Notes: generated by a model not told the origin, from the letters alone. A stretch of DNA of 29,421 nucleotides from a virus (IMGVR_UViG_3300021963_000487:1-29421); one strand, 5' to 3'. Shown: positions 9,772 through 27,434, counted from the first letter of the stretch. Made by a program: numbers and translations.

Positions 9772-12504
9772 ATGGCTACAAATCAACAGGTATATGAACT
9801 ATTAGTCAAGACTAATAATGCAGTTCAAAACCTAACATCATTACAAAACAATATACAAAAGACCAGTGATGCCTTTGGTGGATTAAAGAACGCCATTGCA
9901 GGCATTGCTGTTGGTGCAGTCATCAGAAGTCTATTAAACTTTGCTGACAGCATACAGGATTTAAGTGATGCCACAGGTATTGCCACAGGCAATCTTGTTG
10001 GCTTCCAGAAAGCAGTATCAGCCTTTGGTGGCAATGCAGAGATAGCTGACAAGGCTGTATTAAAGTTAGTCACAAACATTGGTGGTGCCGCAGATGGTAG
10101 TGCTGAACTACAATATGCCTTTAGCCGTGTTGGTGTAAGTCTACAGGATTTGGCCACATTAAGTGAGCAGGATATCCTCAAGAAGACCATTGACGGATTA
10201 GGTAAGATTACCAATCAGTCAGAGCAGGCCATACTTAAACAACAGTTACTGGGCAAAGAGTTCCGTAATGTTGCGGCAGCTGGATTAGGTGATGCCTATG
10301 CCCAGGCCAGTGCTGAAAGTCAAAAGTATCAAGACGCTATCAAGAATGCCGCTGAAGTTCAAGATAAACTAACCAAAGCAATCAGCGATGTCAAGATGAC
10401 AATGCTGGGTATGATCAATGAAACAGGAATCTTAAAATACATACAGGATTTAAGTGTTGACAGTGAAAAACTCAAAGGTGTCATACAGTTAGTAGGCATT
10501 GCCTTTGCCACATACTTTGGAGCCAGTCTTGCTGTCAACATCATTAGGATTGTTGAAGCCATTGCTTCATTAACCAAAGCAGTTATAGCATTAGATGTGG
10601 CCACAATGTTGGCAGGTGGCAAGTGGAAGACCTTTCTTGACATACTATTGAAAGTAGGTAAGGCTGGTGCCGCTATTGGCCTACTAACATTTTCAGGCGA
10701 TCTAAACAGTGGTGAAGATGAACAAATAGCCAAGATCAAGAAACTTGAACAGGCATTAGGCAGTCTTTCAAATACACAGAAAGAAACCTATCAGAAGTTA
10801 AGCAATGAAGACAAACGCCGTGTTGCTGATCTTATAGAATCAGGTAAGACAGCAGAAGAAGCAATGAAGATGATTGCTGGCACTGGTAATCAAGCCAACA
10901 ATGCCGCAGGCGGAGTAAACAATTTAGGGCAAGCAGTAAGAAATATCATTGACCCATTCAAAGGAATGAAGGAAGCACTGAAAGGTAGTGCTGATGATTT
11001 TGCTCGTCTAAACAAAAACACCATTGACAACATTATTCTTAACACCAGCCTTGTTGGTGTTGCTCGTCAAGAAGCAGAGATCCGCAAGGCCAATGCTGAT
11101 ATTACAAACAAAGAAGAAGAAGCAATACGCAAACTCACTGATACTAAGGCCAAACTAACCAAAGAACAACAGGCTGCTGGCCTGGGTGGTATCATTGACG
11201 GACAGATTAAACTGATCCAACAACAGGCAGAAGCTGATAGAAAATCAGCAGAAGAAGCCATAAAGAATAGTGAAGCCCGTGTCAATGCTCGTAAGTTAGA
11301 AGAATACGCTATCAAAGAACAGATCAATCTTGAAAATGAAATGATCAAGATCCAAGATGAGATGGCTAAATCTACATTAAGCGAGATTGAAAAGAAAGAA
11401 TATGAAATTGTTGCCGCAGCCAAGGCTCGTGCCAAGGCAGAGATAGAAGCAGAAGAAGCTCGTCGTGGCAGCAAACTGTCTGTGACTGAAGCCAAAGCCT
11501 ACTATGATGCGGCAATCAAAGGCACCAAGGATTTAGTAGCACAACAAAGAGCAGCCTATGACGACAGTCGCAAGTTCTCTACAGGTTGGAAGCAGGCCCT
11601 AAATGAATATGTTGACAATGCTACCAATGCTGCCAACAGAGCAAGAAGTATATTCCAAAAAGCCACACAGGGTATGGAAGATCTCATTGTAAACTTTGCC
11701 AAGACAGGTAAGTTTGAGTGGAAGAACTTTGTGGCAATGATGCTTGAAGAATTACTTCGTGCTCAAATCCAACAGATCTTTGCTTCATTGATGACTGGTA
11801 TGAAAGACTCAATGAGCACTGGTGGCGGAGGCGGTGGTGGTATTATGGGTGCCATTGGCGGACTGTTTGGCGGTGGCGGAGACAGTGGCAGCTCTGGTGG
11901 CGGAATATTAGATAGCATTGGTAGTATCTTTGGACTTGGTGGAGGCGGTGGAGGCCCTGTTGGTTCCAGTGCTAATAATCCAATGTATGTTATTGATGTT
12001 GGCGGTGGTATGGGTGGCGGAGGTGGTGCTCTTGGAGGACTACTTGGTGGCGGTGACCCGCTTTGTGACTTTATCAATACTCTACCTGGTATGCAAGAAG
12101 ATGCAGGTGGAGGTGGTGGAGGTATTTGGGGCGGAATAACCAACGCATTTGGCGGCATTGCTGATACCATTGGCGGCTTCTTTGGAGGCGGTGGTGGCGA
12201 TACTGGTGGCGGAGGAGGCGGCGGTTTCTTTGACAGTATTGCATCTGGTATTGGCGGACTATTTGATGGCTGGTTTGCAGGTGGTGGTAATATTGGTGCT
12301 GGCAAGTTTGGTGTTGTTGGTGAAAACGGCCCAGAACTTGTAAGTGGCCCTGCTTCAGTAACCCCAATGGGCGGCGGAACTAATGTAACCTACAACATCA
12401 ATGCCGTGGACGCACAGAGTTTCAAACAAATGTTGGCACAAGATCCAAGCTTCATCTATGCCCTATCAATGCAAGGTGGTGGCGGAATACCGTCAAGGAG
12501 ATAA
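9772..12504 (+). CDS. tape measure protein
   Basis: This 910-residue protein fixes tail length and is thought to leave with the DNA. In order: an N-terminal coiled region, a Gly/Ala-rich helix (about 40-55), a hydrophobic stretch (about 235-285) that could cross a host membrane, long coiled coils (about 440-600), and a segment like the lambda tape-measure C-terminal domain (Phe-Ala-Lys-Thr-Gly-Lys-Phe-Glu-Trp-Lys-Asn-Phe, near 640-675). Residues 684-860 are strongly Gly-rich, with runs of up to six Gly. The last 50 residues are again ordinary. By the usual 1.5 angstrom per residue rule the tail would be roughly 130 nm. Confidence 0.95.
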   Translation: MATNQQVYELLVKTNNAVQNLTSLQNNIQKTSDAFGGLKNAIAGIAVGAVIRSLLNFADSIQDLSDATGIATGNLVGFQKAVSAFGGNAEIADKAVLKLVTNIGGAADGSAELQYAFSRVGVSLQDLATLSEQDILKKTIDGLGKITNQSEQAILKQQLLGKEFRNVAAAGLGDAYAQASAESQKYQDAIKNAAEVQDKLTKAISDVKMTMLGMINETGILKYIQDLSVDSEKLKGVIQLVGIAFATYFGASLAVNIIRIVEAIASLTKAVIALDVATMLAGGKWKTFLDILLKVGKAGAAIGLLTFSGDLNSGEDEQIAKIKKLEQALGSLSNTQKETYQKLSNEDKRRVADLIESGKTAEEAMKMIAGTGNQANNAAGGVNNLGQAVRNIIDPFKGMKEALKGSADDFARLNKNTIDNIILNTSLVGVARQEAEIRKANADITNKEEEAIRKLTDTKAKLTKEQQAAGLGGIIDGQIKLIQQQAEADRKSAEEAIKNSEARVNARKLEEYAIKEQINLENEMIKIQDEMAKSTLSEIEKKEYEIVAAAKARAKAEIEAEEARRGSKLSVTEAKAYYDAAIKGTKDLVAQQRAAYDDSRKFSTGWKQALNEYVDNATNAANRARSIFQKATQGMEDLIVNFAKTGKFEWKNFVAMMLEELLRAQIQQIFASLMTGMKDSMSTGGGGGGGIMGAIGGLFGGGGDSGSSGGGILDSIGSIFGLGGGGGGPVGSSANNPMYVIDVGGGMGGGGGALGGLLGGGDPLCDFINTLPGMQEDAGGGGGGIWGGITNAFGGIADTIGGFFGGGGGDTGGGGGGGFFDSIASGIGGLFDGWFAGGGNIGAGKFGVVGENGPELVSGPASVTPMGGGTNVTYNINAVDAQSFKQMLAQDPSFIYALSMQGGGGIPSRR

Positions 12505-12507
12505 TAA

Positions 12508-13125
12508 ATGAGTTTTCAATGGATTATAGATAAAGCAGAATCAATCAGCATCAATACCAAGCGTATGGTTGCTACTACCACTGCCAGAGATGGAACAGTT
12601 CGTGCAGTCAGTCGTGGTGGACAGGTATGGCGTTTTGATGTTAAAGTTCCAGATGGTATCAGTTGGACTGAACTGCGTCAATACATTTCACAGGCTGAAC
12701 AGTTGGATAGAGTTTCAACTGCCACAATCAGTTTGTCAGCCACAGGTCAAAACTGGCTTTACAAATATCAAGGCAACTCTGTGAACTACACAGGATTCGT
12801 TGCCAGCATCACACAAGGTTCGTCAACTATTACATTGACAACAAGCCCAACAACCAGTTCTGGATACAAGTTCCGTGCAGGTGATTATATACAGTTAGGC
12901 AGCAGTGGTAAGGTCTATAAAGTAGCCGCTGATGTTGCCTATAACAGTAATTCAGTGACGCTACATCGTCCTGTGCTTGACTCAACTGCCACTGGTGTTG
13001 CTCTTCGTGTAGCAGAGAACTGTTCCTGGACAGTAATATGCACACAGTTTCCAGAGTGGACATTGTTTGCCAGAGATCAAGTAAGTTGGGCAGGATCATT
13101 TATTTTTACAGAGAATTTAGTATGA
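12508..13125 (+). CDS. distal tail or minor tail protein
   Basis: This 205-residue, strand-rich protein follows the tape measure, where distal tail or lambda gpM-like proteins lie. The N-terminal half (Gly-Gly-Gln-Val-Trp-Arg-Phe-Asp-Val near residue 37) and the Gln-Leu-Asp-Arg helix resemble a ring-forming domain that joins tube to tip. The middle has Ser/Thr-rich strands with Phe-Arg-Ala-Gly-Asp-Tyr-Ile-Gln-Leu-Gly, a turn typical of such inserts. AAGGAG is nine bases upstream. The TGA overlaps the next ATG. Confidence 0.7.
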   Translation: MSFQWIIDKAESISINTKRMVATTTARDGTVRAVSRGGQVWRFDVKVPDGISWTELRQYISQAEQLDRVSTATISLSATGQNWLYKYQGNSVNYTGFVASITQGSSTITLTTSPTTSSGYKFRAGDYIQLGSSGKVYKVAADVAYNSNSVTLHRPVLDSTATGVALRVAENCSWTVICTQFPEWTLFARDQVSWAGSFIFTENLV

Positions 13126-13739
13126 CCATTAACTTAACTTCTTACAAAAGCATTCAGAGTAATCTGTTTGTGCGTATTCAAGTAGATTACTATCGCACAT
13201 CAGCATCTGATAGTTATACTGAAGAAGTGCTCAAGTTCAGTGATATGCTTACACCATTTACCATCAATGATGAAGTCTACACAGGATTGGGTCGCTTGAT
13301 GTCAGTGAGCTCAAGTAGCAGTGAAATCCGTGTCAGTGGCGGACAGGTTACTATTACATTGAGTGGTATTCCTAACAGCAGTATCTACGAGATACTACAT
13401 TCAAAGATCAAAGGCTGTCCAGTGAGAATATATCGTGCTATCTTTGATGCTTCAACTGGAGCATTCCTTAATATTTCAGGTAATCCATTAGGCAGATACA
13501 GAGGCTTTGTCAATAACTACAGTCTCAATGAAGACTATGACAATGCCACAGGCACAAGTTCAAACACATTGGTCTTGGTATGTTCATCATCCGTAGATGT
13601 TTTACAAAATAAACTATCAGGAAGAAAAACCAACCCAGATAGTTTCAAGAAGACTGCTACATTGGCTCAGGCAGACGCCAGTATGGATCGTGTTCCTAAT
13701 CTTGAGAATGCCACATTCAACTTTGGAGCACCAAGCTAA
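13122..13739 (+). CDS. minor tail protein at the tail tip
   Basis: The frame is open from 13038, but ATG 13122 overlaps the previous TGA (ATGA) and gives 205 residues beginning Met-Thr-Ile-Asn-Leu-Thr. The body is beta-rich, with Gly-Arg-Tyr-Arg-Gly-Phe-Val near residue 125 and a conserved-looking C-terminus with Gly-Arg-Lys-Thr-Asn-Pro and Asp-Ala-Ser-Met-Asp-Arg-Val-Pro. The layout recalls DUF2163-like or lambda gpL-like tip proteins that bind the hub, though there is no Cys cluster for an iron-sulfur site. The neighbour downstream is the J-like hub, consistent with the role. Confidence 0.65.
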   Translation: MTINLTSYKSIQSNLFVRIQVDYYRTSASDSYTEEVLKFSDMLTPFTINDEVYTGLGRLMSVSSSSSEIRVSGGQVTITLSGIPNSSIYEILHSKIKGCPVRIYRAIFDASTGAFLNISGNPLGRYRGFVNNYSLNEDYDNATGTSSNTLVLVCSSSVDVLQNKLSGRKTNPDSFKKTATLAQADASMDRVPNLENATFNFGAPS

Positions 13740-14530
13740 TGAGTTTTTTAGATGATATTGTAGATTCAGCATCAGGACTACTTGGTGGTGCTTGGGATAT
13801 GCTCACAGGCAGTGGTGTTGCTGGTGGTGTTGCTCGTGCGGCAGCACTGGGTTATATGCTCAAAGAAGTCACTGCCAGCACTTCAAAGGAAAGTCAAACA
13901 CCAGACACAGTTCGCAGTCAAGAACCTGACTATGGTGTTAGGGAACAGGTAGACCCTGACACCAATAACTCTATACCTGTGGTCTATGGAGAAGCCTATC
14001 TTGGAGGCAAGGTAGTTGATGCAGTCCTAACCAACAACAATCAAACAATGTGGTATTGTTTGGCCATATGCGAACAAACAGGTCCAACAATCAGCGGAAC
14101 ACCCAGTGTTCTTTCTTTTGAAAAGATCTACTGGAACCAAAGTGAAATAGTATTTCAAAGTGATGGTGTCACTGCCGCAAGTCTTCGTGATGAAGAAGGC
14201 AACTCCAGTTCTGATATAAATGGATTGGTAAAGTTTTACTGCTATTCAGGTAGTAGTGCCACGCCCGCAGCCATTAGAGGATATGCACAGGGCAACACCG
14301 CATCAGCCTATAATGTATTTCCAAATTGGACTGTAAATCATTCAATGGAAAATCTTATTTTTGTTTTGGTTAGAGTTGATTACAGCAAAGAAAAAAACAT
14401 AACTGGTCTTGGCAATCTTGAGTTCAAGATCAAAAATACACTGACACAACCTGGTGATGTGTTAAATGATTATATGACCAACAGCAGATATGGTGCTGGT
14501 ATTACCGCAGAGGAGATTAAAGCATCGTGA
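13739..14530 (+). CDS. tail hub protein, N-terminal part (split J-like)
   Basis: These 263 residues begin with a Gly/Ala-rich hydrophobic region (12-42, possibly membrane-active), then Asn-Ser-Ile-Pro-Val-Val-Tyr-Gly-Glu (about 77-85), the entry to the first J-like hub domain. The chain ends Met-Thr-Asn-Ser-Arg-Tyr-Gly-Ala-Gly-Ile-Thr-Ala-Glu-Glu-Ile. In J-like hubs this Arg-Tyr-Gly-x-Gly block is followed directly by a helix and then the next hub domain. Here the gene stops. The expected helix is encoded at the start of the next frame, and the remaining hub begins 3 kb downstream at 17597. The start overlaps the previous TAA. Confidence 0.75.
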   Translation: MSFLDDIVDSASGLLGGAWDMLTGSGVAGGVARAAALGYMLKEVTASTSKESQTPDTVRSQEPDYGVREQVDPDTNNSIPVVYGEAYLGGKVVDAVLTNNNQTMWYCLAICEQTGPTISGTPSVLSFEKIYWNQSEIVFQSDGVTAASLRDEEGNSSSDINGLVKFYCYSGSSATPAAIRGYAQGNTASAYNVFPNWTVNHSMENLIFVLVRVDYSKEKNITGLGNLEFKIKNTLTQPGDVLNDYMTNSRYGAGITAEEIKAS

Positions 14531-17500
14531 ACAGTCTACAAGATCTAAACTCATATAGTGCCGCTTCAACCATTGAGTTCACAGACAATCGTCCCAGCAA
14601 TGTTTTGTTTGATTTAACTACATATTCAAACCCAGCGGCAGTAAACATCTATGAAGGTGAGAACCATAGTGTTCCTAATCCAATAAACATCACTGACATT
14701 ATCAACTATGAGGTCTGCGTGACCACTTATAATATAGATATCAGCGGATTCCCTGCAGGCACAACTGTTGAATGGCCTACATATCCTGGATATATGACTG
14801 CTTCAAATGCCAATGGAGTCTATAGCATCACAGGATTTAAGACACCCAGCGACTGGACCACTGTTAAAAATCCTACTGTTAATATTCCAGATGACATCAG
14901 CGGAAGCTATGTCTATCCAGTGAGCATTGTTTACTTTAATGGAACTGTGGAAACTACCAAATCGTGGAATGTCACGGTCAATATCACAGCAGTTGATGAA
15001 ATGAGTGCGGCAACCGTATTTGATTTCTTTGCATCATCTACATCAACAATCACAGGAACTCCTACAGTTATTGATGCTGATGTGGCCAAGACTTATACAT
15101 TGACTATCACCCCATCAAGAACTGCCAGCGTATCTACATTAAGTAGCAGTGGCACAGGTGGAACCAGCACATTTAATGGCACAAGTAAGGTTCTTACTTT
15201 GGTAGGAACAAAGACACAGGTCAACAGTCACCTTGCTACCATATCAATGGTAAGCACAAGTTCAACAAACGATTTAACTTTAACTTATCTATTAACTAAT
15301 AATCTTAATGCAGTTACAGATACGCAGACTCAAACTTTAAGATGTCTTGATCTTTTATATTTGACAAATACCAGAACAACCAGTATCTACTATAATGAAG
15401 ATACTGCAAAGAATGTTCAAGGTGGTCCACTAATCACTGATAGTGCCTATGATGGATCAGGCACTTATACAATGACTGTGACACCCAGCACTACATCAGC
15501 AGTATCAACAATGGCTGCAACACCAGCATCCAACACTAAAACCATTACTAATACTGGCGGTGTAAAAGTCAAGACAGCACAGAGCAAGTTTGGTGGAGCC
15601 AGTGCTCGTTTTCCTGGTCTGGCTGCTGACTTGATCACAGTCACTAACTCACCAGAATTTAATTTCAGCAACAATGATTTTACCGTTGAATTTTGGATTA
15701 GACCAGATTCTAATTATCCTTCAGGCGGCATTATGAACAAAATAGGTTCAAGTGTTTGGGGAGCCCACCTTGGTTGGAGCATTACTCTACAAGATTATAA
15801 AGTTGAGTTTTGGCAAGGTTTTGCAACTCCTGTAAACTATTCACCATTAAATGGTGTAGTTAGGATTGGACAAAGTTCTCAATTAGGATCTTCAAGTTGG
15901 AGTCATATTGCCTTTACCTGCGAGAACGGAGTATTCAAAACATTTACCAATGGTGTGCTGACACAGACCACTAATAACATTGGCCAGATTGCTCAAAGCG
16001 ATAGTTATCTACAAATAGGAAAAGGCTACTATGGCAACGATGGCACTGGAAACAACGGCGGTGCCTGGCGTGATACTTGGAAATGGGTCAGCGACCCTAA
16101 TCAATATACCAATGGTATGTTTGTTGGCTACCTTGATGAAATCCGTATTTCAAAGATTGCCAGATATACTGCTACATTTACACCTGCAACTTCTGCTTTT
16201 ACAGGCGACGACTATAACTCATTATTGATACACGCTGATGGCACTGACAACAGCACAACATTTACTGATGATACCATTGGACAAACATTAACAGGAACTG
16301 CAAGTTTTAATAACTCTACCAAAGTGCTTACTCTCTCTGGAAACAGAGATGCTGTGAATAACTTGGTTGATCGTATTTTATTAACACCTGCCACTGACTA
16401 TAGACAAAACTTTACATTGTCATATACTGTTACGACTCCAAGATCATCAACAGCTACAAAGACACAACAGTTATTGATTGGAGTAGCAGATACGGATGTG
16501 GTAAACATTGCACAGTCAAGATCTTATATTGGTAATAATCCTAACTATCTTTTTGCCAACAACACACCAAGTATTGCAGACACTGATTCTTCAGGACCAA
16601 CATATACTGTTTCATTCCAATGTTCTTCTGCATTAGGTAGTTTCTCAACAACAAGAAATACCAATGTCAGTGGAAATACAACCATTTCATATAGCGGCAC
16701 AAAAAATGATTGTAATGCTTGGTTTTCAACAGTTATTTTTTATCCAAAGAAAGACAGTATTGCCACTGGTAACATTACCTACACACAATACAAGAACAAT
16801 ACTCTACAGGCCACACAGACATTTTCAATAACTGGAACAAGTCAGGCATTCCCAGATGAAGGATTCTTGGCAGGACCAAACTCTGTTGGTGCTGTATCTT
16901 GGACTCCTACTGCTGAACAAGTCTACTATGTTGGCGTTGTTCAAATCCTTATGGTAGGTGGTGGTGGTGGTGGTGGCTTTGGTGGTGGTGGTGGTGGTCA
17001 AGTTAAAATACTTAATAACATTCCAATCACTAATACTACCTATAACGGTTTTATAGGTTCAGGTGGGAATGCCGCCTACTTTGATGCTGTCTCACAGACC
17101 TATGTTAATGGCACCAATGGTGGTCAGACCAGCTGGCAAGGTGGCTATACTGCTTCAGGTGGAACCACAGGTAGTAAGTTTAATCAAAACAATCCTAACG
17201 GTGTATTTGGAGGAGGTAACTCGTATTCAAGCACAGGCACTACCAGAGCAGGTAGCTACGGTGGTGGTAGTAACTATACTTTCTATGTTGGTGGTGCTGG
17301 TGGCGGTTCAGGTGCCGCGGCAACTGGGTGGCCAGGCGGAAGCAGTCCTGCTGCCAGTGGCGGTGCAGGTGTTACCTTTGAAGACTTAACATATGGCGTT
17401 GGCGGACAAGGTGCCAAATATCTACCACCAAGTAATGCACATACCAAAGGTGCTACCACTGGAACAGCTGGTGGAGGTGGTGGCGGTGCCATTGGCGGAA

Positions 17501-17595
17501 CATTCAAATTGACTGGAACTACAACCAAATATAATCTTCCATTGGCAGATGCAGGACAAAACGGTCGTATTAAAATATGGGTAAGAAGGGTATAA
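14527..17595 (+). CDS. large adhesin-like protein inserted in the hub gene
   Basis: This 1022-residue protein starts at GTG (14527), overlapping the previous TGA, with AGGAG at 14511-14515. Residues 1-20 (Asn-Ser-Leu-Gln-Asp-Leu-Asn-Ser-Tyr-Ser and on) look like the continuation of the hub. The rest is foreign to hubs: Ig/cadherin-like strand repeats (about 20-340), a LamG-like lectin domain (about 344-563, with Phe-Thr-Val-Glu-Phe-Trp-Ile and Gly-Tyr-Leu-Asp-Glu-Ile-Arg-Ile-Ser), more strand repeats (570-800), and a Gly-rich domain (809-1020) with runs of seven and six Gly, like Gly-rich fibre tips. It probably binds host surface glycans at the tail tip. Confidence 0.82.
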   Translation: MNSLQDLNSYSAASTIEFTDNRPSNVLFDLTTYSNPAAVNIYEGENHSVPNPINITDIINYEVCVTTYNIDISGFPAGTTVEWPTYPGYMTASNANGVYSITGFKTPSDWTTVKNPTVNIPDDISGSYVYPVSIVYFNGTVETTKSWNVTVNITAVDEMSAATVFDFFASSTSTITGTPTVIDADVAKTYTLTITPSRTASVSTLSSSGTGGTSTFNGTSKVLTLVGTKTQVNSHLATISMVSTSSTNDLTLTYLLTNNLNAVTDTQTQTLRCLDLLYLTNTRTTSIYYNEDTAKNVQGGPLITDSAYDGSGTYTMTVTPSTTSAVSTMAATPASNTKTITNTGGVKVKTAQSKFGGASARFPGLAADLITVTNSPEFNFSNNDFTVEFWIRPDSNYPSGGIMNKIGSSVWGAHLGWSITLQDYKVEFWQGFATPVNYSPLNGVVRIGQSSQLGSSSWSHIAFTCENGVFKTFTNGVLTQTTNNIGQIAQSDSYLQIGKGYYGNDGTGNNGGAWRDTWKWVSDPNQYTNGMFVGYLDEIRISKIARYTATFTPATSAFTGDDYNSLLIHADGTDNSTTFTDDTIGQTLTGTASFNNSTKVLTLSGNRDAVNNLVDRILLTPATDYRQNFTLSYTVTTPRSSTATKTQQLLIGVADTDVVNIAQSRSYIGNNPNYLFANNTPSIADTDSSGPTYTVSFQCSSALGSFSTTRNTNVSGNTTISYSGTKNDCNAWFSTVIFYPKKDSIATGNITYTQYKNNTLQATQTFSITGTSQAFPDEGFLAGPNSVGAVSWTPTAEQVYYVGVVQILMVGGGGGGGFGGGGGGQVKILNNIPITNTTYNGFIGSGGNAAYFDAVSQTYVNGTNGGQTSWQGGYTASGGTTGSKFNQNNPNGVFGGGNSYSSTGTTRAGSYGGGSNYTFYVGGAGGGSGAAATGWPGGSSPAASGGAGVTFEDLTYGVGGQGAKYLPPSNAHTKGATTGTAGGGGGGAIGGTFKLTGTTTKYNLPLADAGQNGRIKIWVRRV

Positions 17596-17596
17596 A

Positions 17597-19066
17597 ATGA
17601 GCACAATACAAACAAATTTATTCACAATCAATGGAGTAGTCAGCACTGACAAAAGTGTATTACAAAACATCAATACTCTTTGCACAGCCTGTGGAGCCTG
17701 GATGACCTATGACATTGCAGAAGGCAAATGGGCTGTGGTTATCAATCGTGCTGGCACAAGTGTAGCCAGTTTCAATGATTCAAATATCATTGGTGGTATC
17801 AATGTATCAGGCACAGGCATCAATGAATTATACAATACCTGCTCCGTAGAGTTTCCTCACAAAGATCTACGAGATCAAACTGACTATGTGGATTTAGAAA
17901 TAGACGGCACAACTTGGCAGTATTTCCCTAATGAACTGCCAAAGAATATGGACATCAAGATTGACATTATCAATGATCCTATTCAGGCCACATACATTGG
18001 CACCAGCGAACTTAAACAAAGTCGCATTGACAAAGTCATACAGTTCCGCACAGACTATTCAAAGATTGGACTTAAAGCAGGTGATCTCATTGATGTCACT
18101 GCTGAAATGTATGGCTATTCTGCCAAGATGTTCCGTATTACAAAGATTGAAGAAGACGATGGTGATGTATTGGCCATTAGCATCACTGCATTGGAATACA
18201 ATGAAGACATCTACAGCACTACAGGACTTACAAGAAAACTGCGTGAAAAGAAAACAGGCATTGTGCCCAAAGCGGCAAACACAGCATTGACCAGCCTTGA
18301 CAATCAAGCCAGCCTTAAAATGGCAGTCACCCCCAGTGCTCAAGAACAGGGCATTAGTTTATTCTATTCAGCGGCAGCATCAGCAGGTTTAGCCGCAGCC
18401 ACTTGGTATGTTGACTACGCAGGTAAGAAAGTCAGTATTGCCGCTTCAGATGTTGTAGTTTCTTGGGCATTTGCAGACGGTGAAGACTTGGATATTCGTG
18501 CTCGCATAGTCAGTCCAGATGTTGGACAGAGTAGTGTTGATACCTGTTTAGGTTACACAGGCGGCAGTGGACAGTTCCCAGCTGAATCAGTTAGATATTG
18601 GCCTACATCAGGAACAGGTGGTAGTGGTGGAACAGCATATATTGAATGGGGCGGTGATAACACTGGTGTTGGTAATGCTTCAAATCCTATTGCCAGCTCT
18701 GAAACTATTCGTATTGACATTGATAGACTTAAAGCAACATATCCAGCCAAAAGATATTTTGCCGTTGAATGTCGTGGTAATTGGTATACACAACGAGGCT
18801 CAAAGCCCGTGTTTCTTTCTGCAACATTGTATGAAGGTGGAACAACTTCATTAAGTGGTTTTACTTTTACTAACAGCGGGTCAACTCGCAGTCGTGTATT
18901 AGACAGCCAAGGCGTTTATGTTGATAGTTTTCACGGCAATGATGTTGAACAAGATGGCTTTGATGGATCAGGAGCTCCAGGAGACCTAATGGGTTACTTT
19001 GTCTTTGACACACAGACCAATCAAGGTCAGTTCCTACAGACATTACCACCTGGAATCAGTGCATAA
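17597..19066 (+). CDS. tail hub protein, C-terminal part (split J-like)
   Basis: These 489 residues open in the middle of a J-like hub: Asn-Gly-Val-Val-Ser-Thr-Asp-Lys-Ser-Val-Leu-Gln-Asn-Ile-Asn, then Ala-Trp-Met-Thr-Tyr-Asp-x-x-x-Gly-Lys-Trp-Ala-Val-Val-Ile, then Asn-x-x-Ser-Val-Glu-Phe-Pro-His-Lys-Asp-Leu-Arg-Asp and Leu-Lys-Gln-Ser-Arg-Ile-Asp (about 140). These blocks are typical of phage tail hubs that grip the tail tip. Residues 240-489 are beta-rich, Gly/Ser-rich and probably surface-exposed. AAGAAGGG lies upstream of ATG, so it can start independently. Its N-terminal domain must come from the upstream fragment. Confidence 0.82.
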   Translation: MSTIQTNLFTINGVVSTDKSVLQNINTLCTACGAWMTYDIAEGKWAVVINRAGTSVASFNDSNIIGGINVSGTGINELYNTCSVEFPHKDLRDQTDYVDLEIDGTTWQYFPNELPKNMDIKIDIINDPIQATYIGTSELKQSRIDKVIQFRTDYSKIGLKAGDLIDVTAEMYGYSAKMFRITKIEEDDGDVLAISITALEYNEDIYSTTGLTRKLREKKTGIVPKAANTALTSLDNQASLKMAVTPSAQEQGISLFYSAAASAGLAAATWYVDYAGKKVSIAASDVVVSWAFADGEDLDIRARIVSPDVGQSSVDTCLGYTGGSGQFPAESVRYWPTSGTGGSGGTAYIEWGGDNTGVGNASNPIASSETIRIDIDRLKATYPAKRYFAVECRGNWYTQRGSKPVFLSATLYEGGTTSLSGFTFTNSGSTRSRVLDSQGVYVDSFHGNDVEQDGFDGSGAPGDLMGYFVFDTQTNQGQFLQTLPPGISA

Positions 19067-19115
19067 CTTTTTTCACCTTTTTCAGACGATTTATTAGGTT
19101 ATTTTAGGTTTTCAC

Positions 19116-19121
19116 TAAATA
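19116..19121 (+). promoter_or_regulatory. TAAATA box before fibre genes
   Basis: TAAATA lies in the 129-base gap between the hub and the fibre genes. The predicted leader would contain the inverted repeats at 19145-19174. No -35 element is seen. Confidence 0.4.
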
Positions 19122-19144
19122 CAAAGTCATAGGCAATATGACAT

Positions 19145-19174
19145 CAGACAACGATAGGTTGTCTGTCAGACAAC
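19145..19174 (+). repeat. three-arm inverted repeat, alternative hairpins
   Basis: CAGACAAC (19145-19152), GTTGTCTG (19158-19165) and CAGACAAC again (19167-19174). The middle arm can pair with the left arm (8 bp, 5-base loop) or the right arm (about 6 bp, 5-base loop), not both. No T tract follows, so it is not a simple terminator. It could be an operator or an RNA switch before the AAGGAG at 19182-19187. Confidence 0.7.
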
Positions 19175-19195
19175 TTATCTACAAGGAGATATATT

Positions 19196-19579
19196 ATGAG
19201 TGCGGCTTCCAACTATGCGGAGAACTTGGCCCTTAAGTGGCTTTTAACAAACAGTAGTGCAACACGACCAACAGCTTGGTATGTAGCATTGTTTACCAGC
19301 AACCCAACTGATGCAGGTTCTGGCACAGAAGTGTCTGGAACTTATTATGCAAGAACAGCAGTGACTTTTACTGTTACTGATGACACAGCTACTAACAGTG
19401 GTGCGGTAACATTCCCAGCGGCAGGCGGTTCGTGGGGAACCATTAGCCATATTGGTGTATATGATGCATCTACAAGTGGCAACCTATTGTTCCACGGTGC
19501 TGTTACAACATCTAAACAGATTGACAGTGGAGACACTTTCACCATCTCTACATCTAACCTTTCTATTACATTAGCCTAA
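19196..19579 (+). CDS. phage tail fibre or virion surface protein
   Basis: This 127-residue protein has the order found in many small phage virion proteins: an N-terminal helix (Ala-Glu-Asn-Leu-Ala-Leu-Lys-Trp-Leu-Leu), Tyr-Val-Ala-Leu-Phe-Thr-Ser-Asn-Pro-Thr-Asp-Ala-Gly, Gly-Thr-Tyr-Tyr-Ala-Arg-Thr-Ala-Val-Thr-Phe, a Gly-Ser-Trp-Gly turn, and Gly-Asn-Leu-Leu-Phe-His-Gly near the end. I read it as a structural protein that attaches to or forms part of the fibres. AAGGAGATATATT precedes the ATG, a leader shared with the gene at 27102. It is followed by a terminator. Confidence 0.75.
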   Translation: MSAASNYAENLALKWLLTNSSATRPTAWYVALFTSNPTDAGSGTEVSGTYYARTAVTFTVTDDTATNSGAVTFPAAGGSWGTISHIGVYDASTSGNLLFHGAVTTSKQIDSGDTFTISTSNLSITLA

Positions 19580-19640: not shown

Positions 19641-21068
19641 ATGACAAAACCAGTAATCGTAACCAGAGCAGGTAAAGGCTCCGCACTCACTTTCACAGAA
19701 GGTGATGCAAACTTTACCAACTTACAAAATGCCACTATTTCTGTGGCTGCTGACAGTGGCACTACACAGGCCATAGACCTTAACGGCACAGTCACTGTCT
19801 CTGGTGGAACTGGTTTGTCGTCTGCAATGACCACAAATACAGTTACACTTAATCTTGATAACACCGCAGTTACAGCGGGTTCATATACCAAAGCTTCTAT
19901 CACTGTGGATGCACAGGGTCGTATTACTTCAGCATCAAACGGTAGTGCTGATTTTGCTACCAGTGATGCCCGTTCCGCTATCAGTGTAACTGACGCAGGC
20001 GGCGAAGGCAGTTTAAGCTACGATAGTGGCACAGGGGTTATTACCTACACAGGTCCAAGTTTTAGTGGACTTGAAGTCACATCAGCAAAGAATCAAGCCA
20101 ATGGTTATGCAGGTCTTGATAGCAGTGGTAAAGTAGCATCAGCACAACTACCAAGTTATGTAGACGATGTTGTTGAAGCCGCTAACCAAGCCGCATTGCC
20201 AGGCACAGGTGAAACAGGTAAGATCTATGTGACTTTGGACAACGGTAAAATCTATCGTTGGAGTGGTAGTGCTTATGTAGAGATTTCAGCAAGCCCTGGG
20301 AGCACTGATTCTGTAACTGAAGGATCAACCAATCTTTACTTTACTACACAAAGAGCCCGTGATGCGTTTTCAGCATCAACTGGTATCACAATTACCAACG
20401 GTGCTATTGCCACAACAATCACACAATACACTGATACCAATGCCAGAGCCGCATTGAGTGCAGGCACTGGTATTTCATACAATTCATCAACTGGTGCTAT
20501 TGCTTTAGCCAATACCGCAGTTACAGCAAACTCATATACCTATGCTTCAATCACTGTGGATGCACAGGGTCGTATCACAGCCGCATCAAGTGGAACTGCT
20601 CCATTGGTATCAGGTGGAGCATTAGGCACACCTTCAAGTGGAACAGTTACTAATTTAACTGGAACTGCAAGTATTAACATCAATGGAACTGTTGGTGCTA
20701 CTACACCAACTACAGGTGCATTTACTAACTTATCGTCAACAGGCACATTAACATTTAAGAATCCTATTGAAGCACTTTATGACCTTGGCACAACAGGTGG
20801 AACTATTGCTCCTGACCCAGCCAATGGTAGTGTTCAAAAGATCACTCTTAATTCAGCATTGACAATCAACGCATTTACTAATCCAACAGCAGGTGAATCA
20901 CTAACATTGATCATCTACGGTGGAACTGCTTACACTTCAATCACTTCAACAATGAAGTTTGCTGGTGGTATCAAAACACTAACTGGCACAGCAGGTTGTA
21001 TTGATATTCTTTCAGTTTACTATGATGGCACTAACTATTTTGCCTCACTTGGAAAAGGATTTGCATAA
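19641..21068 (+). CDS. tail fibre protein with internal duplication
   Basis: This 475-residue Ser/Thr/Gly/Ala-rich fibre begins with an attachment-like segment (residues 1-30) and continues with beta repeats. A 27-residue unit (Asn-Thr-Ala-Val-Thr-Ala-x-Ser-Tyr-Thr and on) occurs at about 74-100 and again at about 291-317. Residues 225-245 (Ser-Thr-Asn-Leu-Tyr-Phe-Thr-Thr-Gln-Arg-Ala-Arg) match a stalk motif common in phage fibres, and 130-170 contains Gly-Leu-Asp-Ser-Ser-Gly-Lys-Val. The C-terminal 100 residues are non-repetitive and may be a knob. AAAGGA is upstream of ATG; the stop overlaps the next start. It is expected to be a trimer. Confidence 0.83.
   Translation: MTKPVIVTRAGKGSALTFTEGDANFTNLQNATISVAADSGTTQAIDLNGTVTVSGGTGLSSAMTTNTVTLNLDNTAVTAGSYTKASITVDAQGRITSASNGSADFATSDARSAISVTDAGGEGSLSYDSGTGVITYTGPSFSGLEVTSAKNQANGYAGLDSSGKVASAQLPSYVDDVVEAANQAALPGTGETGKIYVTLDNGKIYRWSGSAYVEISASPGSTDSVTEGSTNLYFTTQRARDAFSASTGITITNGAIATTITQYTDTNARAALSAGTGISYNSSTGAIALANTAVTANSYTYASITVDAQGRITAASSGTAPLVSGGALGTPSSGTVTNLTGTASININGTVGATTPTTGAFTNLSSTGTLTFKNPIEALYDLGTTGGTIAPDPANGSVQKITLNSALTINAFTNPTAGESLTLIIYGGTAYTSITSTMKFAGGIKTLTGTAGCIDILSVYYDGTNYFASLGKGFA
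19860..19939 (+). repeat. fibre coding repeat, copy 1
   Basis: About 80 bases nearly the same as 20511-20590. The conserved core encodes Ile-Thr-Val-Asp-Ala-Gln-Gly-Arg-Ile-Thr. Confidence 0.75.
20511..20590 (+). repeat. fibre coding repeat, copy 2
   Basis: Second copy of the repeat at 19860-19939. DNA is nearly identical over the core, so it arose recently or is kept alike by recombination. Confidence 0.75.
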
Positions 21069-23167
21069 TGCCTATTGGAGCTTTCAAACTTAATACTATT
21101 GCAGCCGCAGCCAGTGCCCCTGCAGGATTTAGAACTGCAAGAACTATTACTTCTTATGGTAATGCCAAGGTATCCACTGCACAAAGTAAGTTTGGTGTAA
21201 GTTCAATAGCATTTGATGGATACGCTGATTATTTTACCACAGGAACTTTAGACAGTGGTGATCTAACTGGTGATATGACCATTGAAGCATTTGTTAGGTT
21301 TAACATACTACCCTCAAGCCAAACTGTTGATGGTGGCAACTATATGATGTTATATTCAACAGGTAGTAATTTACCCTATTGTTCAATTGGCACCAGTAGT
21401 GTTCAATTAGCATTACCTGGAGACAAATACGGTTCTTGGGCAATACCTACAATATCTATCAATACTTGGTATCATTTAGCCATTGTTCGCAGTTCAGGCA
21501 CAATCAAATTTTATTGGAATGGAACAGAAAGAACTTCATTCACCAATGACTACAACTGGACTCCAACTGGCACTGATACAATGCTTGGTTCTGTTGCTAA
21601 CTGGGGTAAATTCAGTGACAACCGTGGTAGTTTTTCTGGATATATGGACGAAATCCGTGTCAGCAAAACTGCTCGTTATACTTCAAACTTTACTCCAACC
21701 GCATCAGCATTTACCAGCGACAGCAATACACTATTATTGATCCACGGCGATGACTTTGATGGATCTACTTCATTGTATGACGACAATGGTGATACAATAC
21801 CTACAACTAATAATGCAGTAACTTTAAACGGTAGCAATCAATATTACAATGCTACTGGCTTGACCACAACTGCTACAGATAACAAGTTCTTGACTTTTGC
21901 CTGCACATTCTATTGGAATAGCAATAACTACAATCAAGGTGGCACAAACCTTATGCACTTGATTGATGTCTATCTACCAAGTGGTAATAGTTTTTACATT
22001 TGGATCAACGGTGGACGAATACAGATTGAAGGCGGCATTGGCACAATTTATGAACAAGCAGAAGACAGTCTAACTGGCAATGCCTGGAACAATGTGGTAT
22101 TATATCTTGATACTTCATCAAGAGCCAATAGCCGCATCTATATCAATGGTGTCAGCAAAACATTAGACGCAGGCGGCAATCCTAACAATACCAACATCAA
22201 CTGGGGTGCTTCAGGAGCACAGGTTACCATTGGAGCTCCTAATAGTAATGTCCAAAGCGGTGGAAGTTATTTTGCTGGAAGAATATCACAAGTATATCTA
22301 CACAACAGAAGCGGTGCTCCAACAATTGATCAATTTTGGGATTCAACAGCCAATAAAGCAAGAAATCTTGGAGCCACAGGAACTGCTACAGGAGCACCTG
22401 CTCCATTGATTTACCACTACGGAACAACTTCTACATTTGCCACCAACAGAGGTGTAGGATTTAACAGTTATACATTGACTGCTAATAACACACCAACAAG
22501 CGGTGCTGGTTATACATATTCTACAACACCATTTACATTGAACTCTGTTTTTGTTGATGACTGGGCAACTAAATTATTGATGCACTTTGAAAATGCTGTC
22601 ACTGACGATAACGCATCAGGTAGAACCGCAACAACAACACAAAGTCTTAACGGTGCAGGTTCTTATAGAACAGACCAGAAGAAGTTTGGAACCTACGCTT
22701 TGGCATCAACAGGCATTCCAGGTGGTTGGACTACAACTGCTACCACAGCATTGAATCCTGGAACCAGTGATTTTACTATAGAGTTCTGGTTCCGTCCTTG
22801 TGCCTCTGCCTCTACAGATCAGATTACAATGCAAAATCAAAGCAATGGTAGTGTTCAGATCTATGTTGACGCTGATAGCGGATTTATAGGATTTGGAAAA
22901 CAAAATACTTCTTGGGATGCTTCTGCAAACCTTGGTGCGGCAATTCCTGTCAATACCTGGCATCATATGGCTTTTGTAAGAAGAGGAACATCACTTACAA
23001 TCTATTATGACGGTAACGCTGTAGGTTCTTCAGCATCAAACACAGACAACTATACATCTAATGTATGGCAGTTTAGTATGGGTGGTGCAACAGGAGTTTA
23101 TTTCTATATGGATGATTTCCGTATCAGTGGTATTGCCAGATATCCTAATAACTTCTTAATAGCATAA
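21068..23167 (+). CDS. fibre-associated protein with three LamG-like domains
   Basis: This 699-residue protein has three concanavalin A/LamG-like jelly-roll domains at about 32-230, 250-420 and 500-699. Each shows parts of the same series: Ser-Lys-Phe-Gly or Lys-Lys-Phe-Gly, a Glu-Phe-Trp-x-Arg or Glu-Ala-Phe-Val-Arg strand, an Asn-Thr-Trp-Tyr/His-His-x-Ala strand, Ile-Tyr-x-Asn/Asp-Gly, and a closing Tyr-Met-Asp-Asp/Glu-x-Arg-Ile/Val-Ser. Such domains bind carbohydrates, so this is probably a receptor-binding or capsule-binding virion protein. Domains 1 and 3 are most alike, domain 2 more divergent. The start overlaps the previous TAA (TAATG). Confidence 0.85.
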   Translation: MPIGAFKLNTIAAAASAPAGFRTARTITSYGNAKVSTAQSKFGVSSIAFDGYADYFTTGTLDSGDLTGDMTIEAFVRFNILPSSQTVDGGNYMMLYSTGSNLPYCSIGTSSVQLALPGDKYGSWAIPTISINTWYHLAIVRSSGTIKFYWNGTERTSFTNDYNWTPTGTDTMLGSVANWGKFSDNRGSFSGYMDEIRVSKTARYTSNFTPTASAFTSDSNTLLLIHGDDFDGSTSLYDDNGDTIPTTNNAVTLNGSNQYYNATGLTTTATDNKFLTFACTFYWNSNNYNQGGTNLMHLIDVYLPSGNSFYIWINGGRIQIEGGIGTIYEQAEDSLTGNAWNNVVLYLDTSSRANSRIYINGVSKTLDAGGNPNNTNINWGASGAQVTIGAPNSNVQSGGSYFAGRISQVYLHNRSGAPTIDQFWDSTANKARNLGATGTATGAPAPLIYHYGTTSTFATNRGVGFNSYTLTANNTPTSGAGYTYSTTPFTLNSVFVDDWATKLLMHFENAVTDDNASGRTATTTQSLNGAGSYRTDQKKFGTYALASTGIPGGWTTTATTALNPGTSDFTIEFWFRPCASASTDQITMQNQSNGSVQIYVDADSGFIGFGKQNTSWDASANLGAAIPVNTWHHMAFVRRGTSLTIYYDGNAVGSSASNTDNYTSNVWQFSMGGATGVYFYMDDFRISGIARYPNNFLIA

Positions 23168-23176
23168 GGATATTCA

Positions 23177-26100
23177 ATGTATCAACTCTATTTTGAAGAT
23201 GGCTATGTAGAATCAGCGTATCTAACAAGAGTTGCTGAAATGTCAGCTGACCTGCCTGCAATATTTGATATTTCTGCAGTTGGTGAAAGAACTATCCTTG
23301 ATGGCTACTACTTTTCTGAAGGTTACATAGAAACAGGTTATTTTGTCTATGTGGCACAGGCGTCATCTTCATTAGCATCTTCATTTACAGTCAACTGCAA
23401 TACTACCTTCCAAGAGTTTTTTGCTACACTATCGTCAACATTTACCCAGACTGCTTCTGGTGGCAAGTTGGTTGGATTTAGTGTTACACTATCTTCAGCA
23501 TTTACACAAACAGCCAATGGCAATAGAAATGCTGATATAGATCTATTTGCCTTTGGTAATGCCCAATTAGCTGTGGCAGTAAGTAGGATCCGTGATAACA
23601 ATATTGCGGCAAGTTCAGCATTTACTATTGCGGTAGATGTAACAAGAACAAGAAATCTATCCAGCGAAGACGCCGCAGTATTCACAGCCGTTATTAATGG
23701 ACTACGCAGCCGTGATGTGAATATAAACGCAGAGGCTGCGTTTTCTTTGACCGCTAATGTTCAACGCACCACAGACATTGTTCTTACTGCATTTACCAAT
23801 AGCACATTGACTGCCCTTGGGGTAGTAGAAAGGTCTACAGGCTCATCTTTATCAAGCCAGGCAAATATCACAGTAGATGTTGCCAGAAGCCGTGATGTTG
23901 CCAGCACATTAACTACAACTGCATCATTATCAGTCCCTGGAGAAAGAACTCGTGAAATACAGGCTGATCTGGCATCTGAGTATGCAATTACTATATTAGG
24001 TCAAAGAACCACAGACATTGTTCTTACTGCATTTACTAATGGAACACTATCAGTCACAGCCATTGTGAACAGAACTTTGGCGAGTTCACAGTCCGTATCT
24101 GCCGCATTAACTGTGGTTGGCGGATTATCTATTGTGTCATCTGCAACAATGACATCAAGAGCTACGGTAAGAGGCTATCTTGATGTATTGGTTAGAAACT
24201 ATGCACTGACTCAAAACACAGGCGGCATCTACAATACCGCGGTCATTGATAACTCTGTTTATAAGTTTGGTGGTGGAAGTCTAACCTGGGATGAGGTTAC
24301 TCGTGCTTTCACTGATAGTCAACCAGTTGTCTCTGAGTCAACATTTTATTTCTTCCAGGCAGGCTATACTTGGTCCAGCACTAACGGCACAACTTGGACA
24401 AGAACAACCAATAATCTTTCTGTAGATCCAAGCAGAACAGACAGTCAAGTAGTTAGAGAAAATGGTTACTTTATTTTCTTTGACGGTAGCAATACCATTT
24501 ACTATTCAACGAATGGAACTACTTGGAGTTCCTCAACTGGTATGTTGTCTGTCATACAGGGCACAGGTATTCGTTTATCATCAAATACAGTTCATTATTA
24601 CAATAACAACTATTATCTTTTTGGAAACTATGTTTCAGGAGTGTTAGACAGGATTGGCTGGATTTCTACTAATAGTTTAAGCGGCAGCTGGAGTGCAAAC
24701 TATTATACCACAGGCAGTGAAAGTCGTGATACCTATAAATCAACCAATGGTGTTGTAGTTCCTTTTGTTCAAAATAGCACACTCTATCTATATAGAGGAT
24801 TAATCACAAGCCCAACTTCTGTGATTGTTGGAACTGGTATGTCAGCCCTTCAAGCGTCCTACGACGGTAGCAATACCTATGGAGTTATTACTTCTTTTGG
24901 CGGCAGTGATCATTATCTATACTATTCTAAAAACAACGGATCTTCTTGGAATGCGATTAGTAGTCCTACTCAACAAAGTAATGATCTGCAATATGTTAAC
25001 GGCTATTGGTTTATATCTGCTGATGATGGTTTATATGCCACATCTGACATTGCCAGCGGTTGGACTAAAGTTCACGATTACAATGTAGGCACAGTATTAT
25101 GGAATGGCACAAGATTCTTATCTACACTATTAGAGCGTCCTGGATTTGTCATCACCTCAACTACTGCTGTATCTGATTGGACAGTTAGTCAGGTAAATGA
25201 TATTTCAGGTGTTGGTGGCAGTTTAAGTTATGCCACAGGCCAACTATCTGCCACTGGCACAATAGATTTATGGATTGCCACTGGCAATGAAAGCAATCTT
25301 AATGACATTAGAAAGTTTGGTTCTACAGTATTAAGAATAAAAAATAGTTATAACTCTTATTTGACTATTAGTGCCTATACCTATAGTGAAGTTACACTAA
25401 TATCTGTTAATAAATCTTTAAGTTTATCTGATAGTGCTTCCTTATACAAAACCAGTAATACCAATCTTTCCAATGATTGGATTCATTTAAGATTTGTTCA
25501 ATCAGGTTCATCTGCGGCATTGTATGTTAATGGACAACGATTAACAGGCACAGGTAATATTGGATATTCAACCAGTTGGCCAAATGGAGCAATTAGTGGT
25601 AATGTTGAAATCCTACAAAGAGATGTTTCCTACATTGACGAACTATTAATCACCACTGATGTTCTTACTGATCCCTCAACTACAAGTTTCTCCGTTCCAA
25701 CAAATAGATGGAACAATACAGCAAATACCAAACTGTTATTGCACTTCAATGATGGCTTTGCAGATGACAGTAGATTCCAAGTAATACCAGAAGCAAGACT
25801 AACTGTCGCAGCCTCAATGACTGTGACAACAAATGCAGACTATGTTGAATCATTTGCATTATCCGCAACTGCTACTCTATCAGTTCAAGGTCAAAGAACC
25901 ACTGACATTGTATTGACTGCATTCACCAATGGTGCATTGACTGCTAATAATACAAGAACAAGAGATAACGATAGCAGTCAAAGTTCTGCGTTTAGTCAAA
26001 CTGCCAGTGCCGTTAGATCAAGAGACAACAGTAGTTCATTAAATGCCTCTGCCTCTGTAACTGCAAACAATACAAGAACAAGAGCATTTGACAGCAATCT

Positions 26101-27101: not shown

Positions 27102-27434
27102 ATGGCAACAGCCCGTTCAGGATTTGAACAAACTCTACAGGGTTTGACAATCCAAAAAGACACAGAAGCACAACTGATCTACACCTTTGAGTGGGCAGAT
27201 TGGTTACCAACAGGAGACAGTATTTCTACTTCAACCTACACCATTACGGCCCGTTCTAATGACCCAGATCCATTGGCAATACACAGCCAAGGTCGTTCAG
27301 GAACACAGACCTATGTGGAACTCAAAGAAGGACAAGAAGGAAAAATCTATACTGTGACCTGTGCTATCCAAACAGCCAATGGATTGAAAGATCGTAGAAG
27401 TTTCCGTGTTAAAGTTGAAGCGAGATCAGCATAA
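27102..27434 (+). CDS. fibre-tail adaptor-like protein
   Basis: This 110-residue protein has an Ig-like strand pattern with Lys-Asp-Thr-Glu-Ala-Gln-Leu-Ile-Tyr-Thr-Phe-Glu-Trp-Ala-Asp-Trp-Leu, Gly-Asp-Ser-Ile-Ser-Thr-Ser-Thr-Tyr, and Gly-Lys-Ile-Tyr-Thr-Val-Thr-Cys-Ala-Ile-Gln-Thr-Ala-Asn-Gly. This series is seen in proteins annotated as phage fibre-tail adaptors, which join fibres to the tail tip. Its position right after the giant fibre agrees. AGGAGATATATT precedes the ATG, nearly identical to the leader at 19196. Its TAA overlaps the next ATG (TAATG). Confidence 0.72.
   Translation: MATARSGFEQTLQGLTIQKDTEAQLIYTFEWADWLPTGDSISTSTYTITARSNDPDPLAIHSQGRSGTQTYVELKEGQEGKIYTVTCAIQTANGLKDRRSFRVKVEARSA

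Follow-up and report, generated by a model that had tools for sequence, protein, structure and literature searches.

The hub at the tail tip, which closes the DNA channel until a receptor is found, belongs to the most highly conserved components of long-tailed phages. In the viral genome studied here, the gene expected to encode this part is interrupted by an adhesin-like open reading frame (ORF) of about 3 kb, which raises the question how a hub is built from such a locus. The window, i.e. the whole stretch of DNA analysed, is the complete IMG/VR record IMGVR_UViG_3300021963_000487 of 29,421 bases, in which no tRNA was found. A sequence-only reading had proposed that the hub consists of two or three chains, or of frames joined by two frame changes, with a receptor-binding module placed at a surface loop.

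Hub halves in the window and in relatives

The coordinates, lengths (263, 1022 and 489 aa), overlaps and frame relations of the three ORFs given in that reading were reproduced (Table 1). They lie in a siphophage-type tail module, the gene order of which (tape measure, distal tail protein, HDI-like protein, hub) matches that of lambda. The HDI-like protein likely starts with MTINLTSY inside ORF 13038-13739, as inferred from the relative L001. The first hub frame stops just past an RYGAGI block, in agreement with the Arg-Tyr-Gly-Ala-Gly block at which it had been said to end, and the third frame opens at the INGVV block where the hub blocks had been said to resume. The middle ORF overlaps the N-chain by 4 nt in frame -1 relative to it, and the ATG of the C-chain follows one base past the middle stop in the +1 frame.

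Table 1. Tail-tip features of the window, positions counted from its first base.
Feature	Position	Strand	Evidence or remark
Tape measure	9772-12504
Distal-tail-like protein	12508-13125
HDI-like tail protein, lambda gpL position	13122-13739	+	phrog_2048 tail, E 7e-19
Hub N-chain, 263 aa, C-terminus ...RYGAGITAEEIKAS	13739-14530	+	fused-hub profile 1-249, E 5e-82
Shine-Dalgarno sequence GAGGAG	14510-14515	+	11 nt upstream of middle start, overlaps last N-chain codons; duplex -9.1 kcal/mol
GTGA overlap of N-chain stop and middle-chain start	14527-14530	+	sequence; -4 overlap in 56/76 split loci
Predicted hub anchor, ~24 residues MNSLQDLNSYSAASTIEFTDNRPS, putative missing hub helix and strand	14527-14598	+	profile positions 250-273
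Middle adhesin-like chain, 1022 aa, GTG start	14527-17595	+
Two Ig-like domains, residues 25-154 and 157-275	14599-15351	+	model mc4cc331fa9db
LamG-like domain, residues 338-582	15538-16272	+	PF13385 at 375-504, E 3e-11
Gly-rich tip domain, C-terminal, residues 775-1021	16849-17589	+	PF21722, E 4e-9; Pam3 fiber match
Shine-Dalgarno sequence AAGAAGG of C-chain	17583-17589	+	sequence; -5.5 kcal/mol
Hub C-chain, 489 aa, ATG start	17597-19066	+	fused-hub profile 274-476, E 3e-81; phrog_31
C-chain parts: hub block, then 283-aa extension	17615-18214 (hub block)	+

The nearest cultured relative of both hub halves is the Methylophilaceae phage P19250A, which, unlike the window, carries them without insert, 81 nt apart, in a single 1099-aa chain annotated as 'host specificity protein J' (36% identity to the window N-chain). 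The N-chain matched no Pfam, PHROG or NCBIfam family; the C-chain matched phrog_31, central tail fiber J (E 2e-17). With a profile of 476 positions built from 23 fused hubs only, the profile search proposed earlier for both hub parts yielded one hub tiled by both chains without overlap, leaving a gap at positions 250-273. The hub alignment profile matched T5 pb3 (E 1e-28) and Ur-lambda J (E 6e-4). Judged by sequence comparison, 13739-14530 and 17597-19066 are the N-half and the C-half of a lambda-J-like hub. Sequence matches to J and hub profiles and the hub domain fold, the latter in a model of the fused relative L062 rather than of the window complex, place these parts in the lambda J/siphophage hub family. 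Membership is claimed for fold and parts and not for a single-chain J, as the gpJ-type part is cut at two places in the window.

Scans of viral contigs yielded 113 distinct N-half loci (named L001 etc.) once identical copies had been discarded, and these loci were sorted with profiles of both hub halves; as split N-chains served as queries, the proportion of split loci does not measure their prevalence. The fused class has one ORF, usually with 72-129 nt between the halves, and comprises P19250A and 20-odd viral contigs; the hubs of HTVC111P and HTVC202P are likewise of this type. A split form without insert, in which the helix block opens the C-chain, was found in L007, L046, L050, L063, L068, L079, L081 and L086. 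About 50 loci including the window are split and carry an adhesin chain with a median length of 722 aa. In L008, the N-half runs through the helix into further sequence and the C-half alone is separate. A hub built from three chains, as suggested earlier, is thus supported both by the profile tiling and by fused and partly split relatives.

These four states were mapped on a tree of the concatenated hub halves (85 rows, quick method, root not inferred), which required five changes versus about 31 in shuffles. Fused forms surround the others, and most of the adhesin-free split forms (eight loci in the tree) are intermixed with them. All adhesin-bearing loci fall in one group together with L007, which lacks an adhesin, and L008, in which the N-half is fused again to the anchor. 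The simplest reading of this unrooted tree is that the fused state came first.

Searches of INPHARED with three N-chains and the window C-chain returned fused J-like proteins only and no split hub, and for the middle chain the sole match was a LamG stretch in Synechococcus phage S-SKS1; no relative was found in a scan of bacterial genomes. The layout, previously called uncommon, therefore deserves this term with respect to cultured phages, where INPHARED gave none, but it is common within this uncultured phage family. BFVD holds uncultured-phage proteins that resemble single hub halves, e.g. the 257-aa 'Uncharacterized protein' A0A6J5L2G0 and 406-412-aa entries named 'Tip attachment protein J'. 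Kolga EXVC016S was considered as a fused J with a 1-kb insert at the loop and rejected, as its extra stretch precedes the RYGAGI-type block.

Further irregularities were seen in this region of single relatives. L132-L140, L041 and L057 carry an additional insertion about 50 positions from the start of the C-half profile, a second hub site that accepts insertions. A 153-aa ORF between the HDI-like gene and the hub N-chain (L002:3762-4223) looks homing-endonuclease-like by eye and had no Pfam match. The C-chain at L106:8001-9899 is interrupted, reading as a 94-aa ORF with an ambiguous base and then a second ORF, probably due to a sequencing error in the contig.

The variable middle chain

Domain search and structure prediction together recovered the order hub helix, Ig-like, LamG-like (PF13385) and Gly-rich (PF21722) which had been read from the middle frame by eye. 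The model of the window middle chain reached a mean pLDDT of 73 and a pTM of 0.49. Its two Ig-like domains, with local pLDDT mostly above 90, matched Ig-like repeats with Z scores of 7-12, many of them from bacterial surface adhesins. The LamG stretch, a region of low model confidence, is apparently inserted into a third Ig-like domain (residues 284-331 plus 591-653), and a fourth follows this interrupted one. The Gly-rich tip resembles the fiber of cyanophage Pam3 (7ypx; Z 13.6 over 174 residues, rmsd 3.1). Among relatives, Gly_rich_2 occurs in 24/53 middle chains, and FG-GAP, LamG, RCC1-type and DUF285 modules are present as well. LamG and fiber-tip folds hint at host-cell binding by this chain, which is suggestive only.

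Closely related loci differ sharply in this chain. For L066 and L090, identity amounts to 88% in the N-chain, 90% in the C-chain and 88% in the anchor at the start of the middle chain versus 18% in its distal part; the corresponding values are 98, 97, 96 and 50% for L025 and L031, and 84, 91, 75 and 27% for L002 and L089. At the DNA level, L025 and L031 are 93-97% identical up to the anchor, at most 40% distally, and 95% again at the end of the middle ORF. The change appears to be episodic, because other close pairs (L025/L027, L051/L055, L067/L080) keep nearly identical middle chains. From this variation we infer that the distal middle chain is an exchangeable cassette for host-binding specificity, the binding role being putative.

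The middle chain might instead be a structural or enzymatic decoration of the hub, with host recognition left to fibers encoded downstream. The window does encode further fiber-like genes, and because other likely adhesins lie in ORFs 19641-27091, beside a gp80-like fiber gene and a gp77-like adaptor gene, receptor binding may depend mainly on a protein other than the middle chain. A mere decoration is nevertheless unlikely in view of the very fast, block-wise divergence between conserved flanks, the phage-fiber tip fold, and the lectin-like or propeller-type modules of relatives. It is also opposed by the C-chain extension, which is shorter where the middle chain is present, as if a C-terminal fiber role had moved: the median is 394 aa in adhesin-bearing loci versus 573 aa in fused and 786 aa in split adhesin-free loci (p 3e-6, a statistic that ignores relatedness). 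Such shortening is consistent with, but does not prove, a relocation of the binding part from the C-terminal end of the hub to the middle chain.

The downstream region has peculiarities of its own. Homologs of the podophage GP4 fiber I protein gp80 (19196-19579; PF23140, E 3e-42) and of the GP4 fiber-tail adaptor gp77 (27102-27434; PF23148, E 5e-18) flank the fiber-like genes of the window, despite its siphophage tail module. ORF 21068-23167 encodes several LamG-like domains, one of which is 32% identical over 255 columns to 15538-16272, suggesting that LamG modules are shared between tail genes of the same phage. The 1304-aa ORF 23177-27091 contains many degenerate repeats (motifs like SSAFTQTANxxRTRD), had no Pfam or PHROG match, and has a 1425-aa counterpart in L001.

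The predicted anchor and the chain junctions

The site of the break was located in the fused relative L062, which is 46% identical to the window N-half and was modelled from 96 rows with a pLDDT of about 95 over residues 62-483. This model matched the hubs of RcGTA (6tba, Z 23.5), lambda J (8xcg, Z 23.1), T5 pb3 (Z 21) and other siphophages. Its junction region comprises a helix (258-266), a strand (270-274), a turn (275-277) and a second strand (278-282), with RYQING from residue 285. By alignment, the chain would be broken before the helix and the adhesin would enter at the hairpin turn; the surface loop proposed earlier would correspond to a predicted beta-hairpin tip in a confident model of a fused relative, which bears out that proposal in part. 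Alignment with T5 pb3 shows a longer loop at the break site. Alignment with Ur-lambda J puts the site inside gpJ, hence it is not the known break between lambda gpL and gpJ.

The start of the window middle chain corresponds to the helix and strand missing from the tiled profile. Taken alone, this anchor matched the fused-hub profile weakly (2.9 bits); a helix is predicted at its residues 4-13. Because single-chain profile scores are too weak by themselves, the case for the anchor was built on many loci. A profile of the helix only had its best match within the first 8 residues in 40/60 middle chains compared with 3/60 shuffled ones. The block, with the consensus MNSLxELNxY...TDxRP, is conserved across about 60 middle chains while the remainder varies; L7 and N8 occur in all of 65 middle chains, and D20 and R22 are present in 91%. 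In the adhesin-free split loci, the same block starts the C-chain itself. On this comparative evidence, the first ~24 residues of the middle chain are predicted to supply the missing hub helix and strand.

A four-chain form was detected in L075/L076/L077/L147, L091/L142, L143/L148, L144 and L145 (L091 ends before its C-half). Here, the N-half is followed by a short chain (133-154 aa, the anchor and about one domain) and then by a long one (408-1041 aa), both of which open with the anchor, e.g. MGSLADLNTYSATTV and MSTLAELNTYSATSV. These tandem chains support the view of the anchor as a putative docking element and raise the possibility of mixed occupancy.

The weak match in a single chain, together with fiber-like domains such as those of the downstream genes, could also mean that the middle chain is a separate fiber gene located between hub genes, its likeness to the hub helix being incidental. 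This explanation is quite improbable, since the anchor block opens the middle chain in every split locus examined, forms its most conserved residues, starts the C-chain where no adhesin exists, and is carried by both middle chains of the four-chain form. Moreover, a motif scan of all loci revealed no other anchor-bearing gene repeating across the family.

Whether the three frames yield separate chains was judged from the junctions. Relative to the N-chain stop, the middle or helix-bearing chain of 76 split loci starts at -4 (56), -1 (10), -8 (6), +3 (2), +14 (1) or +16 (1), so that each of the three possible frame relations is represented, among them in-frame starts separated from the N-chain by its stop. 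The LN motif was one of the criteria for assigning start codons, which biases the result only slightly, as few candidate starts lie near each stop. A Shine-Dalgarno core precedes the middle start in 74/76 split loci and in 0/28 fused loci, although the region searched there was wider; the counts are inflated by related rows, but the contrast between split and fused loci is complete. The duplex energy at split junctions averages -6.9 kcal/mol versus -1.7 at control codons, with values of -5 kcal/mol or lower at 92% of junctions and 5% of control codons. Weak Shine-Dalgarno sequences were seen at a few junctions of the four-chain lineages (L143, L148, L144, L145, L075). The C-chain starts have their own Shine-Dalgarno sequences (mean -5.5 kcal/mol over 52 loci). 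Collectively, these signals indicate coupled re-initiation, by which separate chains are predicted.

Programmed frameshifts at 14527-14530 (-1) and 17593-17597 (+1), which the sequence-only reading had considered, would instead fuse the frames, so that some or all of the product would be a single long hub-adhesin polypeptide. They would account for the order of the parts, which is as expected for one chain carrying an insert, and for the one common frame relation of 67/76 split loci. As a general rule, however, they conflict with the occurrence of three frame relations, with starts in-frame after the stop (3 nt between) and gaps of 14-16 nt, and with Shine-Dalgarno sequences that mark split but not fused loci. 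Furthermore, adhesin-free split forms exist, no common heptanucleotide slip motif was seen by eye at the printed junctions, and the fixed frame without internal start signal that characterises programmed frameshift genes such as lambda G/GT was not found. We consider this mechanism very improbable. An assembly or sequencing error, named earlier as a possible refutation, is ruled out by the identical break in tens of viral contigs from different metagenomes, and an intron or intein is practically out of the question as well, as 13000-19500 gave no Rfam match and excision would remove the hub block, present once and inside the middle chain, while leaving the N-chain stop.

Proposed hub completion and known tail tips

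We regard it as likely that this locus encodes a multi-chain J-like hub completed by an exchangeable chain of anchor plus adhesin, with separate chains and their assembly deduced from the features described above. The N- and C-chains would hold the whole J-type hub core except for one helix and one strand. The middle chain would present the anchor first, continue as a stalk of Ig-like domains with a LamG-like insertion, and end in a Gly-rich tip of phage-fiber type. All three would be made from one message by coupled re-initiation, for which the GTGA overlap and the Shine-Dalgarno sequences provide strong sequence support. During assembly, the anchor would complete each hub unit non-covalently and fix the adhesin at the tip of the hub beta-hairpin. 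Because only the anchor must fit the hub, the distal part would be freely replaceable, and host-binding specificity could therefore be exchanged as a cassette. More tentatively, and with somewhat less than an even chance, the device may be described as split-protein complementation, in which a conserved helix-strand anchor on a swappable adhesin completes the hub and the two anchor chains of the four-chain form share or compete for three sites, giving a mixed adhesin content.

Division of a hub among several chains is known from lambda (gpL/gpI/gpJ) and RcGTA (gp13/gp15)(PMC10721106, PMC13243795). The earlier statement that the hub is normally one polypeptide was hence too strong, given the upstream division of these hubs (PMC10721106), but it holds for the present site, where they are undivided. 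Lambda and RcGTA share the hub fold, as modelled for the fused relative L062, and likewise split one hub unit with variation adjoining the break, which in lambda is a described focus of variation (PMC10721106, PMC13243795). Their break, however, lies upstream between the HDI and HDII-insertion parts and leaves gpJ uninterrupted, whereas in the present family one or two breaks lie inside the gpJ part, and the intervening chain is an adhesin with a hub segment. T5 has a one-chain hub, with fiber and receptor-binding protein separate and below it (PMC10721106); the profile match to pb3 extends over the greater part of the hub core, and the pb3 loop at this site is longer.

Binding modules on a conserved tail-tip scaffold, in Dits at loops, are also known from evolved Dit and Tal proteins (PMC7291167). 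There, the decorations lie inside one chain. In the present case, the polypeptide is interrupted before and after the module, which would contribute part of the scaffold and has its own ORF, start and Shine-Dalgarno sequence instead of sharing one polypeptide with it. Gly-rich tips are proposed antireceptors (PMC10721106, PMC13243795), and by composition the middle chain can be compared with the poly-glycine 'brush' tips of LSH1 gp25 and phage S16 (PMC13243795). Those Gly-rich ends belong to the hub C-terminus or to a fiber-tip protein, in contrast to the separate middle chain described here. In the open-access literature, we found no hub that is interrupted at this hairpin and receives the missing segment from an adhesin chain. 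While multi-chain hubs and tail-tip binding modules were known before, the break site and the adhesin chain predicted to supply a hub segment appear to be new.

The absence of Pfam, PHROG and NCBIfam families for the hub N-chain marks an annotation gap, and the 24-residue anchor is a concrete candidate for a docking element. The series from fused over split and adhesin-bearing hubs to duplicated anchors illustrates in nature how such a device might come about. If the proposed reading is true, a variable chain that fills a break in the hub couples receptor binding directly to hub integrity, and the host range of these phages could change without remaking the scaffold.
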